DNA of 64,000 bases from Candidatus Nitrospira neomarina (lineage in GTDB: Bacteria; Nitrospirota; Nitrospiria; Nitrospirales; UBA8639): positions 310,001-374,000 of the forward strand of contig NZ_CP116968.1 of the NCBI RefSeq assembly GCF_032051675.1, in the 5' to 3' direction. The notes beneath the pieces are model-generated. The model was not told where the DNA came from and ran no database searches. It saw nothing but the letters and a program-made list of their open reading frames with translations. Shown here one piece after another: positions 15,484 through 62,292 of this stretch. The position numbers and the translations under genes were made by a program. Position 1 is the first letter of the stretch; the number at the start of each line of letters is the position of its first letter.

Positions 15484-16926
15484 ATGAAACCATACTCGAT
15501 TTATCTGGTCATTGGCGGATGCGGTATGGCCGCGTTGATGATGGGCATCGTCCTTCCGGAGGTGTTGCCGGGGTGGCGTTGGGCCCATGAACCCCTCCAT
15601 TCCACATTGGAAACTGTCGGTGGATTGGCCGCCATTTCCATGGGAATTGTGCTACTTCAAAGGACCACTGACCCTACCAGGCAGAAATTCTTTCCCCTCG
15701 CCGGTGGCTTTCTCGGGATGGGTACTCTTGAAATTTTTCACGCCGTATCAGTACCAGGGAATGGATTCGTGTTATTGCGGGGCCTTGCGAGTTTGTTGGG
15801 AGGTTTGGGATTCGGGCTGATGTGGCTCTCTGCGTCGGGAAAACACCACCTAACGATTAAATGGATGCCGTGGGTGATGACCGGCGTAGCCCTTGCAATT
15901 GGCTTTTGGACGATTGGATTTCCGGAATATTTGCCGGTAATGGTGCGTGAAGGGGCATTCACGCCAACCGCCGTTGCTCCTAAAAGTTTTGCGAGCATGC
16001 TGTTTTTTGCCGGATCGCTTCGCTTCTTTTTGGATTATCGAACCACGGGTCGATCGGAAGATATCCTGTTTGCCTCATTGGCCCTTATGTTCGGATTTGC
16101 GGAATTGATGTTTACCTATTCCGTGATCTGGGGCAGTCGATGGTGGTTCTGGCATTTCCTCCGGTTGTTGGCGTATTTCTTCGTTCTGGGGTATATCGGG
16201 CGAGGGTATTTGGCCACCGTCTCGGAGTTACGGTCATCATTGATTCAGACGAAACAGGCCGAACAAGCCAGTCGGCAGAGTGAACAACAGCTTCGGACAG
16301 TCTTGGAAGCCCGGGAGCGTTTGGCCCAGGATCTTCATGACGGCGTCATTCAATCGACATTTGCTTTAAAGCTGAATTTGGAACGGTGCCAGCGACTCAT
16401 TCCACAGAATCCTCAAGAAGCTCTCACCGGCATCAGCGATGTCTTAATGGAACTCAAATTGGTGATTCAAGACCTGCGCAAACATATTAGCGGTCTTGAA
16501 CCGGAATGCCTGAATGGACGGCAATGGGTTGAAGAGATGCGCACCCTCGTGCATAGCGTAGAAAAATCACAGAAGCTGCCCTTTCACCTGCAGATCGATC
16601 AGGAGGCGGCCGACCTGCTCACGCCGGAGGAAGCCACCCATCTGCTGTATGTGGTGAAAGAATCCATCAGCAACAGTGTGCGACATTCACATGCCACGTC
16701 AGGCACGGTGTCGCTTCAAGTGCGCGAGGGGACGGTTTGTTTGGAAGTGATGGACGATGGTCTGGGATTTGATCTTGAAAATACCCATGAGGGAGTTCAC
16801 GGATTGAAAAATATGGCCGCACGCGCGAAGCGGTTGGGTGCGCACTTTCAAGTATGGTCGAAACCTCACCGTGGAACTCGAATTTTTTTTGAGATTGCAC
16901 AGAAAGGAAGCCATGCCCAGGCGTAA
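15484..16926 (+). CDS. Membrane sensor histidine kinase, NarX/LiaS-like (HisKA_3)
   Basis: A 480-residue protein. Residues 1-245 hold seven or so hydrophobic segments resembling a MASE-type membrane sensor domain, with short loops and no large periplasmic domain. A coiled coil follows, then the HisKA_3 dimerisation motif AQDLHDGVIQ with phospho-acceptor H285, and a HATPase domain with ESISNSVRHSHA (N box) and DDGLGFD (G1 box). The gene overlaps the next one by 14 bases, which pairs them as a two-component system. The signal is probably in or near the membrane. There is no clear ribosome site at 15484. Confidence 0.9.
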   Translation: MKPYSIYLVIGGCGMAALMMGIVLPEVLPGWRWAHEPLHSTLETVGGLAAISMGIVLLQRTTDPTRQKFFPLAGGFLGMGTLEIFHAVSVPGNGFVLLRGLASLLGGLGFGLMWLSASGKHHLTIKWMPWVMTGVALAIGFWTIGFPEYLPVMVREGAFTPTAVAPKSFASMLFFAGSLRFFLDYRTTGRSEDILFASLALMFGFAELMFTYSVIWGSRWWFWHFLRLLAYFFVLGYIGRGYLATVSELRSSLIQTKQAEQASRQSEQQLRTVLEARERLAQDLHDGVIQSTFALKLNLERCQRLIPQNPQEALTGISDVLMELKLVIQDLRKHISGLEPECLNGRQWVEEMRTLVHSVEKSQKLPFHLQIDQEAADLLTPEEATHLLYVVKESISNSVRHSHATSGTVSLQVREGTVCLEVMDDGLGFDLENTHEGVHGLKNMAARAKRLGAHFQVWSKPHRGTRIFFEIAQKGSHAQA

Positions 16927-17572
16927 CACAAACCCTATCCGTCTCTTACTGGTCGATGATCACGAGGTGCTTCGCCTGGGCCTGAAAACGCTGTTTACCG
17001 AAACCGCGAACATTCAGGTTGTGGGTGAAGCGGGTACCAGGGCCGCGGCGGAGTCCGAAGCTGACCGTCTTCAGCCTGATGTGGTGCTCATGGATGTCCG
17101 TCTTCCCGACGGGAGCGGTATTGAGGCCTGCCGTGAGATTCGGAATGCATCTCCTGAAATCCGGGTGTTGTTTTTGACGTCCTTTGCCGACGACGAGGCG
17201 GTGATGGCGACCATCATGGCAGGAGCCAAAGGCTTTCTGTTGAAAGAAATCAGCGGGGAGGAGTTGGTTCGTGCGGTAACAACGGTGGCTGCCGGTCAGT
17301 CTATTCTCGATCCTGCGATCACACAACGGGTTCTCACCAAAATGCAGCATCTCTCTACCTCTTCCGCTGATGGCAAAAAAGAATCGTTGGCTCCTCAGGA
17401 ATTGAAGGTGTTGACACTGGTGGCCGAAGGAAAAACCAATAAGGAAATTGCCGTAGCACTTGACCTGAGCGATAAAACTGTCGGCCATTACCTTGAAAAT
17501 ATTTTCCAGAAACTGCAGGTGACCCGCCGCTCTCAAGCTGCGGCAGAGTTCGTCCGCAGATTCACCTCATAG
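16913..17572 (+). CDS. NarL/FixJ-family response regulator
   Basis: A 219-residue protein: an N-terminal receiver domain (LLLVDDHEVLRLG; phospho-acceptor Asp in VVLMDVRLPDGSG; conserved Lys in FLLKEISG) and a C-terminal LuxR-type helix-turn-helix (LAPQELKVLTLVAEGKTNKEIA). The ATG at 16913 lies within the kinase gene, 14 bases before its stop is complete, and follows AAAGGAAG, so translation is coupled. The pair is next to the nirK activator on the same strand, but a 238-base gap separates them. A structured repeat element begins 81 bases after the stop. Confidence 0.93.
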   Translation: MPRRNTNPIRLLLVDDHEVLRLGLKTLFTETANIQVVGEAGTRAAAESEADRLQPDVVLMDVRLPDGSGIEACREIRNASPEIRVLFLTSFADDEAVMATIMAGAKGFLLKEISGEELVRAVTTVAAGQSILDPAITQRVLTKMQHLSTSSADGKKESLAPQELKVLTLVAEGKTNKEIAVALDLSDKTVGHYLENIFQKLQVTRRSQAAAEFVRRFTS

Positions 17573-17652
17573 CAAATGTTAAATATTTCAATGTACTGCC
17601 TTTTCATTAGCATATGAGTTCCTGAAACTTACACCGGAAAAAATGAGGGAGT

Positions 17653-17765
17653 GTTCAAAAAGGCTCGTCCAGCAAGGCCGCAGCCGATTGGACGGGCGAA
17701 GCGTACGGACGAGTACGTGAGCACGGCCAGGCGGCGAGAACGCCGCTGGCGGCATTTTTCAAAAC
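17653..17765. repeat. Structured intergenic repeat element, copy 1
   Basis: About 113 bases starting GTTCAAAAAGG and ending CATTTTTCAAAAC. Conserved with copy 2 at 62041: CGTCCAGCAAGGCCGCAGCC, the AGCGTACG region, AGTACGTGAGCACGG and GGCGAGAACGCCGCTGGCGG. Predicted pairs: CCAGC with GCTGG, GCCGATTGG (17683-17691) with CCAGGCGGC (17727-17735), and GCGTAC with GTACGT inside. The arms of the middle stem vary between the copies. No protein is encoded. Confidence 0.8.
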
Positions 17766-17931
17766 TCCCATTAGGGGCGATTACCCCTATTCGCATACGG
17801 GAAGAATAGTTGCCCGGCTCCTGGTGTTCGCACCTACCGCTTTCCTCTCAATTCATACACAATAGCCTCAGACGATGAAGACTCCCAAGCGGAGCCTGTT
17901 CTCATCCACTGTTCAATCCAAGGAGGCCGTC

Positions 17932-30727: not shown

Positions 30728-31372
30728 ATGCGACTCCTTTTCTAAGTGAAGGCAAATGATGATTGACTCTTGTACGTCGCGAGTGACAGAAAAGTCAAAA
30801 GGCCCGGCATCTCATTCCTCTCGAAAAAAATTGGTGAGTCCCGGCTGCAGTCTTCCCGTTATTTAGCTCTTTTCGTCCCTCTCTTGAATAGCTGGTCCGT
30901 TTCTGTCGCTCAAGCCATGCCCGGGCGACATTTTTTAATGCCGCGTACCCAGATATCGGCACCCATATTGCGCATCATGCATGATTTCATCGGGAAACAG
31001 GTTCAATCAATTTTGATTGCTGTACGAATATCATTTCTAATTTTTACTGGATTTCGTGGTGTTGTGGGGGTGAAGCCAGATGAGCGAATTGGGTCATTGA
31101 GGAATGTGTGGAAGTTATTTGTCAGTTGAGTTAGGCTTTTTTTGCGAATCTGACTGTGCCTCGCTCCTGATAGAAAGAAGTTTTGCGTCAAAACGATGAA
31201 ATGGAGCAAGAATTGAGCAGGCCAGAGACTTTCTTTTCATGCGGATCCGGGTTCGGATCACCAGGAGAAATATTCTACACATGACGTGTTTCCCACTTGA
31301 TAAGGCGCAGCAGCAATCATTTCATAGATGGCTTTATTCCTAAAACTCATTCAGGGTTCTGGAGGAACACAC
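30728..31372. other. Long intergenic region; no gene seen
   Basis: About 640 bases upstream of a secreted repeat protein. A reading frame at 30770-31129 exists but has no ribosome site, no recognisable motif and poor codon character. The region probably holds the promoter of the secreted protein, which I could not locate. No riboswitch or RNA family was recognised. Confidence 0.4.
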
Positions 31373-33550
31373 ATGAAAATTTTCAACCAAATGGTCACTG
31401 CGGGCACAATCGTCCTCATGCTCGTATTCCTTGCACCCCCTACCTATGGAGCGGAGACGGCCCGAGTCAGTGTCAGCACCGGTAATCTGCAAGGCAATAA
31501 CAATAGTTTTCTTCCGGACCTTAATGAAAACGGCAGGTTTGTTACCTACTATTCCTTGTCGACTAATCTGGTGCCCGGTGATACCAACGGGGTACGAGAT
31601 ATATTCGTGTACGATCGGCAAAACCAACAAACTACGCGCGTGAGCGTGGCGACGGGTGGAGGGCAGGCCAATGGTGAGAGCCTTGAGCCTGCCATAAGCG
31701 CCAACGGGCGTTATGTGGCATTTCGGTCGGATGCCACGAACCTGGTTCCGGGGGATACAAATGGCACCACTGATGTGTTCGTCCATGATCGGCAGACAGG
31801 CATCACGAGCCGGGTCAGTGTTGCGACGGGTGGGGGACAGTCCAATAACAACAGTTTTACTCCAGCCCTGAGTGCTGACGGCAGGTTTGTGGCGTTCCAC
31901 TCCTTTGCGAACAATCTGGTGCCGGGTGACACCAATGGAGTGTTAGATGTGTTCGTTCATGATCGGCAAACAGGGGCGACGACACGCGTGAGTGTGGCCA
32001 CAGGCGCAATCCAGGGGAATAATACCAGTCGAGCGGGATTTCTCAGTGCGAATGGGGGGTTGGTGGCGTTTGAATCCGATGCGACTAACCTGGTCCCGGG
32101 CGATACCAATGGTGTGCGGGATCTGTTCATTCATGATCGGCAAACAGGGGTGACGACGCGTGTGAGTGTGGCCACAGGCGGAGGGCAGGTCAATGGTGAG
32201 AGTGTGGATGCCGAATTGAGTGCGGATGGTCGCTATGTCACATTTCAATCGGATGCAACGAATCTCGTCGCTGGCGATACCAATGGAGTGGGTGATGTGT
32301 TTGTCCATGACCGTCAAACGAACACCACCACGCGCGTCAGTGTGGCAAGTGGCGGTCTCCAAGGAGGAGGAGAGAGTTCAGAGGGGACCATCAGCGGGGA
32401 TGGACGTTTTGTGGCATTTCTTTCTTTTGCCACCAATCTCGTTCCGGACGATACGAATGGAGAGGGTGATGTGTTTGTGCATGATCGTCAGACCAACACG
32501 ACCACCAGGATGAGTGTGACGACCGGTGGAGTGCAAGGCAATGATTTTAGTTGTAATCCGGCAATCAGTCAGGATGGTCGGATTGTCGGATTTTTCTCAG
32601 ATTCAACCAACCTGGTTCCGGGTGATACGAATGGAATCCGGGATATCTTCATTCATAATCGCACGGCGAACTTTGATTTGGATGGAGATGGCAAGGCTGA
32701 CATCGTGTGGCGCAATATCAATAATGGCAGCACGGCGATCTGGTTTATGAATGGAACGGCAATTGCTTCCTCAAGTTTCCCGGGCGGTGTCCCTCCAGCT
32801 TGGGAGATTACCGGTATCGGCGATGTGAATGCGGATGGTCAGGCTGATGTGATTTGGCGCAATAGCACCAGTGGTACGGTGGCTGTGTGGTTAATGAATG
32901 GGAATACCATTGCATCGGTAGGCTTCCCGGGCACTGTCCCTACCGGTTGGGTGCTTGAGCAACTTGGAGATGTGGATGGGAATGGCACGGCAGACCTCGT
33001 TTGGCGAAATACCACTAGCAAGGTGGTTGTCGTGTGGCTGATGAGTGGAGCGACCATTGCCTCATCCAGATCGCTCGGTGGTGTCCCGGGTGAGTGGAAG
33101 ATTGTCGGAATGGGCGATGTCAATGCCGATCGCAAAGCCGATATCATCTGGCGGAATAGCAACAGCGGGGCGGTGGCCGTGTGGTTAATGAACGGCCTCT
33201 CGGTCCTGTCAATCGGAGTCCCAGGGAATGCCAGCTTGGTGTTTGAGGTGGCCGGGGTGGGGGATGTTGATGGGAATGGGACCGCTGACCTGATCTGGCG
33301 TAATACCGGCAGCGGTGCGGTGGCGTTCTGGCTCATGAATGGACTCACGATCGGGACCACGGGTGCCCTGGCAGGCAAGGCTTTGGAGTGGGACATTGCC
33401 CAGGTCAGTGATCGGGACGGTAGCGGGAAAGTAGATTTGACCTGGTTCAACACCGACACCGGTGAGGTCGAGGTGTGGCTGATGAATGGGGTCACTGTTG
33501 GTTCAACAGGTTCACCGGGGACCACCTCTTCGAGCTGGGAGATTCAATAG
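31373..33550 (+). CDS. Secreted protein: seven beta-propeller-like repeats plus six VCBS/FG-GAP-like repeats
   Basis: A 725-residue exported protein. The start at 31373 follows GGAGGAACACAC and gives a signal peptide ending near PPTYGAE. Residues 25-460 hold seven repeats of roughly 58 residues with GRYVxFxSxATNLVPGDTNG, then DVFVHDRQTxxTTRVSV, like the WD40/TolB-type propeller blades of PD40 proteins. The remainder holds six repeats with the calcium-binding-like DLDGDGKADIVWRN, closing with VAVWLMNG. Propellers with VCBS repeats usually sit outside the cell. No sorting signal or membrane anchor follows. DNA identity among repeats is high, so copy number may change by recombination. Confidence 0.87.
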   Translation: MKIFNQMVTAGTIVLMLVFLAPPTYGAETARVSVSTGNLQGNNNSFLPDLNENGRFVTYYSLSTNLVPGDTNGVRDIFVYDRQNQQTTRVSVATGGGQANGESLEPAISANGRYVAFRSDATNLVPGDTNGTTDVFVHDRQTGITSRVSVATGGGQSNNNSFTPALSADGRFVAFHSFANNLVPGDTNGVLDVFVHDRQTGATTRVSVATGAIQGNNTSRAGFLSANGGLVAFESDATNLVPGDTNGVRDLFIHDRQTGVTTRVSVATGGGQVNGESVDAELSADGRYVTFQSDATNLVAGDTNGVGDVFVHDRQTNTTTRVSVASGGLQGGGESSEGTISGDGRFVAFLSFATNLVPDDTNGEGDVFVHDRQTNTTTRMSVTTGGVQGNDFSCNPAISQDGRIVGFFSDSTNLVPGDTNGIRDIFIHNRTANFDLDGDGKADIVWRNINNGSTAIWFMNGTAIASSSFPGGVPPAWEITGIGDVNADGQADVIWRNSTSGTVAVWLMNGNTIASVGFPGTVPTGWVLEQLGDVDGNGTADLVWRNTTSKVVVVWLMSGATIASSRSLGGVPGEWKIVGMGDVNADRKADIIWRNSNSGAVAVWLMNGLSVLSIGVPGNASLVFEVAGVGDVDGNGTADLIWRNTGSGAVAFWLMNGLTIGTTGALAGKALEWDIAQVSDRDGSGKVDLTWFNTDTGEVEVWLMNGVTVGSTGSPGTTSSSWEIQ

Positions 33551-37792: not shown

Positions 37793-39946
37793 TCAAGGGC
37801 AGGGATTCGGGCGTTTAATCCCAACCGGCAATTTTGTTTTCTCATCAACGCAAGCTTCATCAATTTGTGCTTGGGCGAGGCCCTGAGACCCACTTAGGTC
37901 AACATCGAAAAATTTAGTTTTGAAAAATTTTACCCCTTCTAAATTGGTCTTATTGAAATTCCCAAATCGAAAGACAGCATTGGAGAAATCGCTGGTACCC
38001 TCTTTCGTCTTCTCTATTACCAGGCTAATCCCAGGGCTTTCAATGCTTGCTTGGTTGTCAAAAATTGGGTAGGGGCCAGAGAAAATGGCCTGCTCAAAGT
38101 TTACGGCATCAAAAATCGCAGATTCGAAGGTTGTTCCTGCCAGAAAAGTTTGAGAAAAGTCAGCATTAATTATAAAGGCCTTCCCAAAGTTGGCCCCTCG
38201 AAAATCGGCCTTCTTATATTTACCGCCCATCCGAACATTTGCAAGGTTGGCCCCTAATAATTTTGCGTTTTCCAGTGTAGACAGCATAAGGGCACCAGTT
38301 AAATTTGACCGAGAAAAATCCGCCCCTCCCAAATAAACTGCCATCAAAAATGCATAGCTTAAGTCTGCTCCGTTGAAACGGGAGTTTGCCCAAAATCCCC
38401 CTTCGGCATAAAGGTGGCGAAGATTTTTACCCCTAAAATCGGCACCCTCAATCTTTGATATGTGCTCAAAATCTTGTGGCCAACTCTCGGGTGGCTGGGT
38501 AAGGTTTTCCCTATAAAATTTGGGATAAGTTCGAAGTCCAAGTTCTTGGAGAAATTCTAATAGTGCATAGTTAATTTTTTTGCTCCAGGCTAAGTTGCTG
38601 GATAAATATTGATCCATTGGGTGTCTTGGTTCAAGGGAGTATGCATCAGTTTTTAGATAGAATGGCCACCACTCAGAAGTTGTTGTTATGTTAACGGCTG
38701 CTCTTGAAACAAGAACAAGAATAAGCAAAGCAAAAAGGCATGCCGAAAAACTTATTCCAAAAATTCTTGGTCTTTTGAGGGATTTGTCAAGTGTTAGGCG
38801 AGCTAGAGAAAAAAAATAAATGCCAAATCCCAGGGAAATTGAAAATATGGAGGCCAATGTTAATATAAAAGTCTCATCATGTGTCGGGATAACTCGGACC
38901 CAAAACTCACTAAGAATAAAAGGTACAAGACCCCATGCAAGAACTAATGAGGCAATAAATTGTAGGCCAAACAAATCCGGGAGGTTTGTCTTTAATAGAG
39001 GGATATAGGCTCGAATAAAACCGCTAAGGAGCCATGGGAATACTTTTTGATCCAAAGCTTTCCCATCAGGGAAGATGGCTGGCAAAGCTGCCATTTCTTC
39101 CCATAGGCGTTGTAAATATAGGTGAAACCAAATGTAAATGCCTAACAATATTAGAGGTGCAACATAGAAGAAAGGAGTGATGGGAATTGCGGTTTGAATT
39201 ATGGGCAGATCATAATATTTTGAATCTAAAAACAATTGGGAGTCAGTAGTGGTGGCTATTGTGAGCCATGAATACAAACACCCTACCAACATTAATATAA
39301 AAAGTTTTCCAGCCTTTTTAGAGAGTTCTTCAATCCTAGCTAGGCCTTCAAATTTCCTGATATCCTCAGAAATTTTGGCACCAGAAAGATCAGTGCCAGC
39401 TAATTGGCTGCCAAGAAGTCCAGTAACTTTTTCGAAATTTGAGTCTTGAAAATTGGATTCATCAAGCTTCGTTCTTAGCAAATAGGCTTCTTCGAAATTA
39501 CTTTGGGGGAACTTCGAATTCTTTAAATCACTTCCGGCAAGTTTTGCCTTCTTAAATTGGCATTTTTCAAAAGTTGAATTGCTAAGGTCAGCGTCAAGTA
39601 TGAACGAATTATTGAAAGAACAGTCATAGCAATTTGCCTTCACAAGGGTTGATTTATTTAAAATGGCACTTTCAAAAGTCACTCTTTTGAGATCTGCCCC
39701 AATCAGCTTAACGCTCTCAAGATAACTGCCTGTGAAGTTGACATTTTCTATAAATGCCTTGGAAAGGTTTTTACCGTACAAAGAAAAAGAAATTCTATCC
39801 AGGTGGGTTTTTGTGAGATCAAGGTTTTCTAAGATGGCTGGATTACCCTCGTGGCCATTTGAATTTAGCCATTTCTCATGATTGTGGAATATGGCTTCAA
39901 GATCCGCTTTTAAGGGTTTTGTGTAGGAAGGCTCTTGCTCTGACAT
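37793..39946 (-). CDS. Polytopic membrane protein with two pentapeptide-repeat domains
   Basis: A 717-residue protein. Residues 40-195 and about 500-690 are pentapeptide repeats (A(D/N)Lxx units such as LKLIGADLKRVTF and GADFSRSNLTGALML), forming right-handed beta helices. Between them lie five or six transmembrane segments (YSWLTIAT, IIQTAIPITPFFYVAPLILLGIYIWF, LIASLVLAWGLVPFIL and so on). The DNA is visibly AT-richer than its neighbours, with many AAA/TTT codons, suggesting recent transfer. No ribosome site is evident at 39946. Pentapeptide helices flanking a membrane domain suggest a scaffold or sensor. Function unknown. Confidence 0.82.
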   Translation of the reverse strand: MSEQEPSYTKPLKADLEAIFHNHEKWLNSNGHEGNPAILENLDLTKTHLDRISFSLYGKNLSKAFIENVNFTGSYLESVKLIGADLKRVTFESAILNKSTLVKANCYDCSFNNSFILDADLSNSTFEKCQFKKAKLAGSDLKNSKFPQSNFEEAYLLRTKLDESNFQDSNFEKVTGLLGSQLAGTDLSGAKISEDIRKFEGLARIEELSKKAGKLFILMLVGCLYSWLTIATTTDSQLFLDSKYYDLPIIQTAIPITPFFYVAPLILLGIYIWFHLYLQRLWEEMAALPAIFPDGKALDQKVFPWLLSGFIRAYIPLLKTNLPDLFGLQFIASLVLAWGLVPFILSEFWVRVIPTHDETFILTLASIFSISLGFGIYFFSLARLTLDKSLKRPRIFGISFSACLFALLILVLVSRAAVNITTTSEWWPFYLKTDAYSLEPRHPMDQYLSSNLAWSKKINYALLEFLQELGLRTYPKFYRENLTQPPESWPQDFEHISKIEGADFRGKNLRHLYAEGGFWANSRFNGADLSYAFLMAVYLGGADFSRSNLTGALMLSTLENAKLLGANLANVRMGGKYKKADFRGANFGKAFIINADFSQTFLAGTTFESAIFDAVNFEQAIFSGPYPIFDNQASIESPGISLVIEKTKEGTSDFSNAVFRFGNFNKTNLEGVKFFKTKFFDVDLSGSQGLAQAQIDEACVDEKTKLPVGIKRPNPCP

Positions 39947-61848: not shown

Positions 61849-62040
61849 AAACACCATTCCAAAACATCCCGCAGTGTCAATCTCCTCGTCTTGTTCGGGA
61901 GAAGATCAGGAATTCATCTCACCCAATTCCTCAAGAAAGCGGGTTAGCCTCAGTGTTTCATGAAAGGGAGTGTTGAATAATAAGGATGTTCAAGGGCAAA
62001 TTTGCGCAGGATTAGATTACCCATCAAAGGCTACGGGTCG

Positions 62041-62150
62041 GTTCAAAAAAGTCCGTCCAGCAAGGCCGCAGCCGTTTTAACGCGCGGAGCGTACGCGTAG
62101 TACGTGAGCACGGAAAAATGGCGAGAACGCCGCTGGCGGCTTTTTTCAAC
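62041..62150. repeat. Structured intergenic repeat element, copy 2
   Basis: Starts GTTCAAAAAAGTCCG and ends GGCTTTTTTCAAC. It shares the conserved blocks of copy 1 at 17653. The middle stem is GCCGTTTT (62071-62078) with AAAAATGGC (62114-62122). Outer pairing AAAAAAG with CTTTTTT and CCAGC with GCTGG is kept. It lies 143 bases upstream of the tryptophanase-like gene. Confidence 0.8.
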
Positions 62151-62292
62151 AGACCCTGAAATAGAGGCGGAAATCGTCAATTCATCAATAGTTCGATGTT
62201 TTTCTGGAAGATGATATGATTTCGGTGCCTGGGAGGGATGGGCTTTCCCCGGATCCTGAAATAAAGCGACCAGCATAACCGGAGGACTGAGG

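Follow-up and report, generated by a model that had tools for sequence, protein, structure and literature searches.

Introduction

Bacterial MITEs, non-autonomous transposable elements, are usually regarded as decaying passengers. Among the described families, ERIC/IRU sequences of enterobacteria are intergenic imperfect palindromes of 100-200 bp with terminal inverted repeats (TIRs) and target-site duplications (TSDs), present in tens to hundreds of copies and giving rise to a structured transcript (PMC2229807, PMC10969869). The NEMIS/Correia elements of Neisseria are MITEs with a stem-loop which, once transcribed, can act on neighbouring mRNAs via RNase III (PMC2229807, PMC10969869). RUP of Streptococcus pneumoniae is tied to an insertion sequence (IS), IS630-Spn1, by common ends (PMC2229807). 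Dispersed extragenic palindromes are also formed by REP/REPIN sequences, which are associated with RAYT transposases.

Here we describe a structured element of the order Nitrospirales, which includes the Nitrospira nitrite oxidisers. It resembles ERIC/IRU in size, intergenic position, imperfect palindromy, TIRs, TSDs and copy number. However, sequence and host phylum are unrelated, ERIC is listed with a TA-type end whereas the duplication here is 5 bp, and the Nitrospirales element has a left domain of its own and a candidate transposase whose IS has matching ends. With NEMIS/Correia it has in common that it is a MITE with a stem-loop; we know of no sequence relation between the two. As in RUP, a link to an IS is suggested by common ends, but RUP has a TA target, in contrast to the 5-bp TSD and the IS5/IS1182-like candidate partner found here. 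The IS5/IS1182 superfamily is matched by the ends and by the DUF772 plus DDE_Tnp_1 transposase of that candidate, although the MITE has no coding sequence and the partner, which scores under the NCBIfam cut-offs, has the terminal ~15-18 bp in common with it. Unlike REP/REPIN sequences with their RAYT, which are likewise dispersed extragenic palindromes, the element has other ends, another size, a TSD and a different candidate transposase. The likeness to ERIC and NEMIS is one of kind, that of a structured intergenic MITE, and membership of either family is not claimed.

The family combines genuine covariation, apparently lasting constraint at fixed sites and a candidate transposase with matching ends, which makes the old question of why structured bacterial MITEs persist directly testable. 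A covariance model is supplied for the annotation of Nitrospirales genomes.

Identity and extent of the element

The window, that is, the whole 64-kb stretch of DNA analysed, had been predicted to hold two look-alike stretches with ~110 bp in common (17653-17765 and 62041-62150). Both were found at these positions, and the pair is the sole long dispersed non-coding repeat within the window. Searching the genome of origin (G000, 4.80 Mb, one contig) with each copy extended the repeat leftward by ~70 bp, to a start at GGGAGTGTTGAATAATA. The repeat is real but its true unit is longer (~190 bp), the 110 bp being the hairpin half. A ~70-bp left domain is followed by a ~120-bp imperfect palindrome, with the following features in the window:

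~17572..17769, + strand: the whole of copy 1, from the older subfamily A; left end placed by alignment with copies of that subfamily
17572..17646, + strand: copy 1 left domain; weakly conserved
17647..17769, + strand: copy 1 hairpin domain; includes 17653-17765
61961..61965, no strand: target-site duplication TGAAA, left of copy 2
61966..62156, + strand: the whole of copy 2 (191 bp), from the young subfamily B; three relatives have the empty site
61966..61982, + strand: copy 2 left terminal repeat, GGGAGTGTTGAATAATA
61966..62034, + strand: copy 2 left domain
62035..62156, + strand: copy 2 hairpin domain; includes 62041-62150
62142..62156, - strand: copy 2 right terminal repeat, GGGTCTGTTGAAAAA read on the - strand
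62157..62161, no strand: target-site duplication TGAAA, right of copy 2

Copy 1 starts on the stop codon of a response-regulator gene that lies upstream (16838-17572). Orthologs of this copy are present in loci L138 and L121, and its left domain differs from that of the L138 ortholog at 18 of 75 bases. Subfamilies are told apart by the outer stem (GGGAGTG/CACTCCC, GGGTCGG/CAGACCC or GGGGCGG/CAGCCCC), and further forms occur in relatives.

Two unusual arrangements were seen elsewhere in the same genome. An 87-bp form (L071, G000:C1:16134-16220) has lost the entire hairpin and keeps both ends and a flanking CTTGTG repeat, and at L179 (G000:C1:4331532-4334005) two oppositely oriented copies lie ~2 kb apart, like a composite arrangement. 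The window itself also holds a 740-codon frame in which a 174-bp unit occurs five times and a 147-bp unit four times in tandem (31328-33550) and a pentapeptide-repeat frame of 717 codons (37793-39946).

Evidence for transposition

Copies are bounded by TIRs, GGGAGTGTTGAA…TTCAACAGACCC, with a left end of GGGAGTGTTGAATAA and a right end of GGGTCTGTTGAAAAA on the opposite strand; the 15-mer end pattern read backwards had only 5 matches in 4.8 Mb. For the 73 copies with both ends located, an exact 5-bp target duplication at the unshifted boundary was observed in 42, whereas 200 shuffles gave 0.8 on average and never more than 5. No comparable excess was found at that boundary for any other TSD length between 2 and 9 bp. 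When the flanks of copy 2, joined with one TGAAA, were used as a query, three collinear genomes of the same genus showed an empty site, with 86, 82 and 77% identity straight through; a single TGAAA stands in L229 and L231 and a single TAAAA in L228. At 191 bp the element is below the size of a transposase gene and has no coding capacity. The TIRs, the 5-bp TSDs and the empty sites of copy 2 mark the element as a MITE, and what had been read as a dispersed element has indeed transposed, as the target duplications and the empty sites in relatives demonstrate.

Copies from other genera frequently have YTAR-CAGG.TGTTGAAAAA at their ends. This suggests a 4-bp target, judged from few loci in which the flanking bases are possibly part of the end. 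We tentatively consider, as a possible but rather doubtful extension, that the hairpin is a self-standing, host-useful module that spread and persisted across the order by riding on at least two transposon end types: here GGG..TGTTGAA, which goes with 5-bp duplications, and in other genera CAGG.TGTTGAAAAA, flanked by YTAR-like 4-bp sites.

A candidate transposase

The combination of TIRs and 5-bp TSDs points to a DDE transposase. A search of the own genome for two families, DDE_Tnp_1 and Tn3, found no such transposase. Among the transposase loci of relatives, a ~1.2-kb IS was picked out in a genome of the same order (G035, locus L268). It runs from GGGACTGTTGAATAA to TTTTTTCAACAGCCCC, with ends given as GGGACTGTTGAATAA and GGGGCTGTTGAAAAAA, and encloses an open frame of 341 codons that encodes DUF772 and DDE_Tnp_1 domains. 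The MITE has the same asymmetry between its ends as this IS (left ...GAATAA, right ...GAAAAAA), and the final 18 bases of the IS are those of MITE subfamily C, the two elements sharing just the terminal ~15-18 bp. The IS sits at a contig end, so its TSD is unreadable. Since the transposase scores below the NCBIfam cut-offs (158.5 of 270 bits for IS1182, 127.8 of 140 bits for IS5_4), we name it only IS5/IS1182-like. The nearest plasmid relative, a Bandiella plasmid transposase, is 62% identical, with ends GGGAGTGTTGCAAGAT / GGGAGCGTTGAAAGAT. Judging from the matching ends, the G035 IS is the likely source of transposase for the MITE.

Two other kinds of candidate were rejected. A 1.4-kb copy in L063 resembled an autonomous form, but the gene that it carries is that of an IS110 transposase, which has inserted into the copy and split it, and pairs of ends 0.7-5 kb apart in the fetched loci enclose ordinary genes and no transposases. 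In the L063 copy (L063:1022-2452, G000:C1:1893521-1894951), the gene of the IS110 family (RNA-guided type) lies within a small nested palindrome, CATGCCCTGAG...CCGAAGG, which is apparently its target.

Copy number and distribution

Collecting all copies with a covariance model, as the original prediction had proposed, yielded ~81 copies in the own genome, the weaker opposite-strand matches being mirror images of the same places. The two copies noted in the window are both real but belong to a far larger set. The family is present in 40 of 41 genomes (the own genome and relatives of the order Nitrospirales). All 20 other genomes of the genus carry it, with 15 to at least 80 copies each; other genera of the same family have 3-57 copies per genome and other families of the order 0-66. 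Named records with the element are Nitrospirales or Nitrospirota MAGs, apart from three labelled Nitrospinota (two contigs of one MAG) and Deltaproteobacteria. The window had no match in Rfam at the gathering threshold, and a literature search on Nitrospira and MITE returned nothing relevant. The MITE family is new to the resources searched and apparently undescribed in Nitrospirales. In one relative (G030), a copy stands immediately upstream of an apparent tRNA gene (L107:1610-1660).

Folding and covariation

The variable parts of the two window copies had been read as the two arms of one stem, and this holds: GCCGATTGG/CCAGGCGGC in copy 1 corresponds to GCCGTTTT/AAAATGGC in copy 2, one pair changes on both sides from G-C (17690 G, 17728 C) to T-A (62078 T, 62115 A), and the stems CCAGC/GCTGG and GCGTAC/GTACGT are identical in both copies. 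Both copies fold better than their shuffles (z -5.3 and -6.4), with none of 200 shuffles as good.

When the structure of copy 2 is applied to 64 diverse sequences, pairing is kept in 94.6% of cells. Two-sided changes occur at 24 of the 44 pairs and in 212 cells, compared to 62.5 in shuffled alignments (none of 500 reaching this number) and 22-58 with partners slid, counts that are inflated by the relatedness of the sequences. A stricter tree-based test, in which substitutions were moved along the tree, left just two pairs that are significant on their own, each of them an outer-stem pair of the structure. A lack of covariation in other copies had been named beforehand as a possible refutation; these copies do covary (24/44 pairs). 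Together with the strongly conserved stems of vertically inherited copies, the two-sided changes across the 64 sequences uphold the proposed selection on a fold. The hairpin is under real pairing constraint.

Sequence is unevenly conserved within the fold. The hairpin loops CGCA and GAGAAC are conserved and differ between the left and right arms, and the loop and arm sequences AAGGCCGCAG and CGAGAACGCC are almost invariant, beyond what pairing alone demands. The central and outer stems vary freely in sequence with complementarity kept. Changes to G-T outnumber those to A-C by 98:58 on the broad tree and stand at 6:10 among young copies; on these patterns, RNA-level selection on the hairpin is possible.

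Many copies carry small palindromes akin to CCCTGAG...CGAAGGG, which recur within the hairpin at a few fixed positions (L024, L026, L064-L069, L072, L075, L078, L132, L138). The five sites that could be placed, a small number, all coincide with bulges, loops or helix junctions of the predicted fold, a pattern that loss of stem-disrupting insertions would produce.

Apparent constraint after insertion

Several older copies, including copy 1, are orthologous between species. Four orthologous pairs have diverged by 2.8% in the stem, 8.7% in the loop, 23.3% in the left domain and 13.1% in the flanks, the latter being partly coding. Because the partner loci had been located via a 26-base apical motif, we removed this motif from the comparison; the arms were still just 4.1% divergent (p 3e-14 vs the left domain), with some residual bias possible as the own copies were also found by similarity. 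In 26 young copies compared with their consensus, divergence was 1.5% in stems, 6.1% in loops and 5.4% in the left domain, and private changes in two subfamilies numbered 56/4513 in the hairpin vs 59/2543 in the left domain (p 0.0008). Considering the 2.8% divergence of orthologous stems against 23% in the left half and 13% in the flanks, the hairpin appears to be constrained after insertion.

Slow divergence could also come from ectopic gene conversion among the copies. More broadly, the covariation could stem from DNA mechanics, with template switching copying one arm onto the other and gene conversion keeping copies alike, and no selection on the fold. Paired changes do fall mostly in the blocks that separate subfamilies, and the ratio of G-T to A-C mismatches in young copies is what would be expected if no strand were read as RNA. 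However, the distinct conserved loops of the two arms have not been homogenised, G-T changes exceed A-C changes in the wider set, and orthologous copies change slowly yet retain subfamily-specific outer stems. We regard this explanation as unlikely.

Genomic context and possible role

Of the 66 copies that could be scored by simple gene calling, 64 lie between genes. They are oriented at random relative to their neighbours: 19 sit in tandem in the direction of the element, 18 in tandem against it, 18 between convergent and 9 between divergent genes, and the excess of convergent sites falls short of significance (p 0.12). The hairpin is bordered by A5-6 at one flank and by T5-6 at the opposite one, and a terminator scan yielded a single weak match, in copy 2, with nothing in copy 1. 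Given the random orientation and the non-significant excess, a terminator role is only a guess. Random orientation speaks against a leader or riboswitch tied to one strand, and a hairpin that works both ways would be in keeping with it. At its site, the hairpin may act as a two-way transcript end, an RNA structure or a protein site.

The reading that we consider probable is that of a MITE moved in trans by an IS5/IS1182-like DDE transposase, with a pairing-constrained hairpin that is useful after insertion, most likely as a transcribed two-way hairpin. The element inserted by transposition, duplicating 5 bp, with the transposase presumably recognising the GGG..TGTTGAA-type ends. Matched changes preserve the pairing of the palindrome, which in vertically inherited copies evolves at a rate several-fold below that of the remaining element and the flanking DNA. 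Since pairing is kept and change is slow in such copies, the hairpin may well serve the host after insertion, most likely once transcribed, as a two-way transcript end or insulating RNA hairpin in any orientation between genes.

Selection could instead act on DNA, on a double-stranded palindrome bound by protein (a nucleoid protein, a gyrase-type site or a subterminal site of the transposase). The near invariance of AAGGCCGCAG and CGAGAACGCC and the indifference to orientation would fit such a site, but the central and outer stems are free to change as long as they stay complementary, unlike a binding site of fixed sequence, and we find this improbable. A functional non-coding or cis-regulatory RNA that is merely repeated, its mobility incidental, would account for the deep conservation over the order, the covariation and the conserved loops. 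This seems quite improbable, as Rfam has no match, there is no strand preference relative to flanking genes, and the TSD-bounded duplicated unit takes in the poorly conserved left domain.

Compared with the trans-mobilised MITE that we favour, the suggested REP/REPIN-type element moved by a TnpA_REP (RAYT) transposase is highly implausible: a RAYT gene does exist in the genome, ~0.8 kb away from one element copy, but it has its own REP (GTAGGGTGGGC...GCCCACC), and the element is far longer than REPs, with TIRs and 5-bp TSDs. The proposed search for a TnpA_REP gene thus succeeded in finding one, whose REP is unlike the element, and RAYT was rejected as the mobiliser. This gene (L032:1462-2061; own REP GTAGGGTGGGCATCGCCCACC) is the sole intact RAYT gene of the genome, a second Y1_Tnp match carrying two in-frame stops. 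The MITE copy that lies downstream of it stands beside a group II intron maturase-like fragment.
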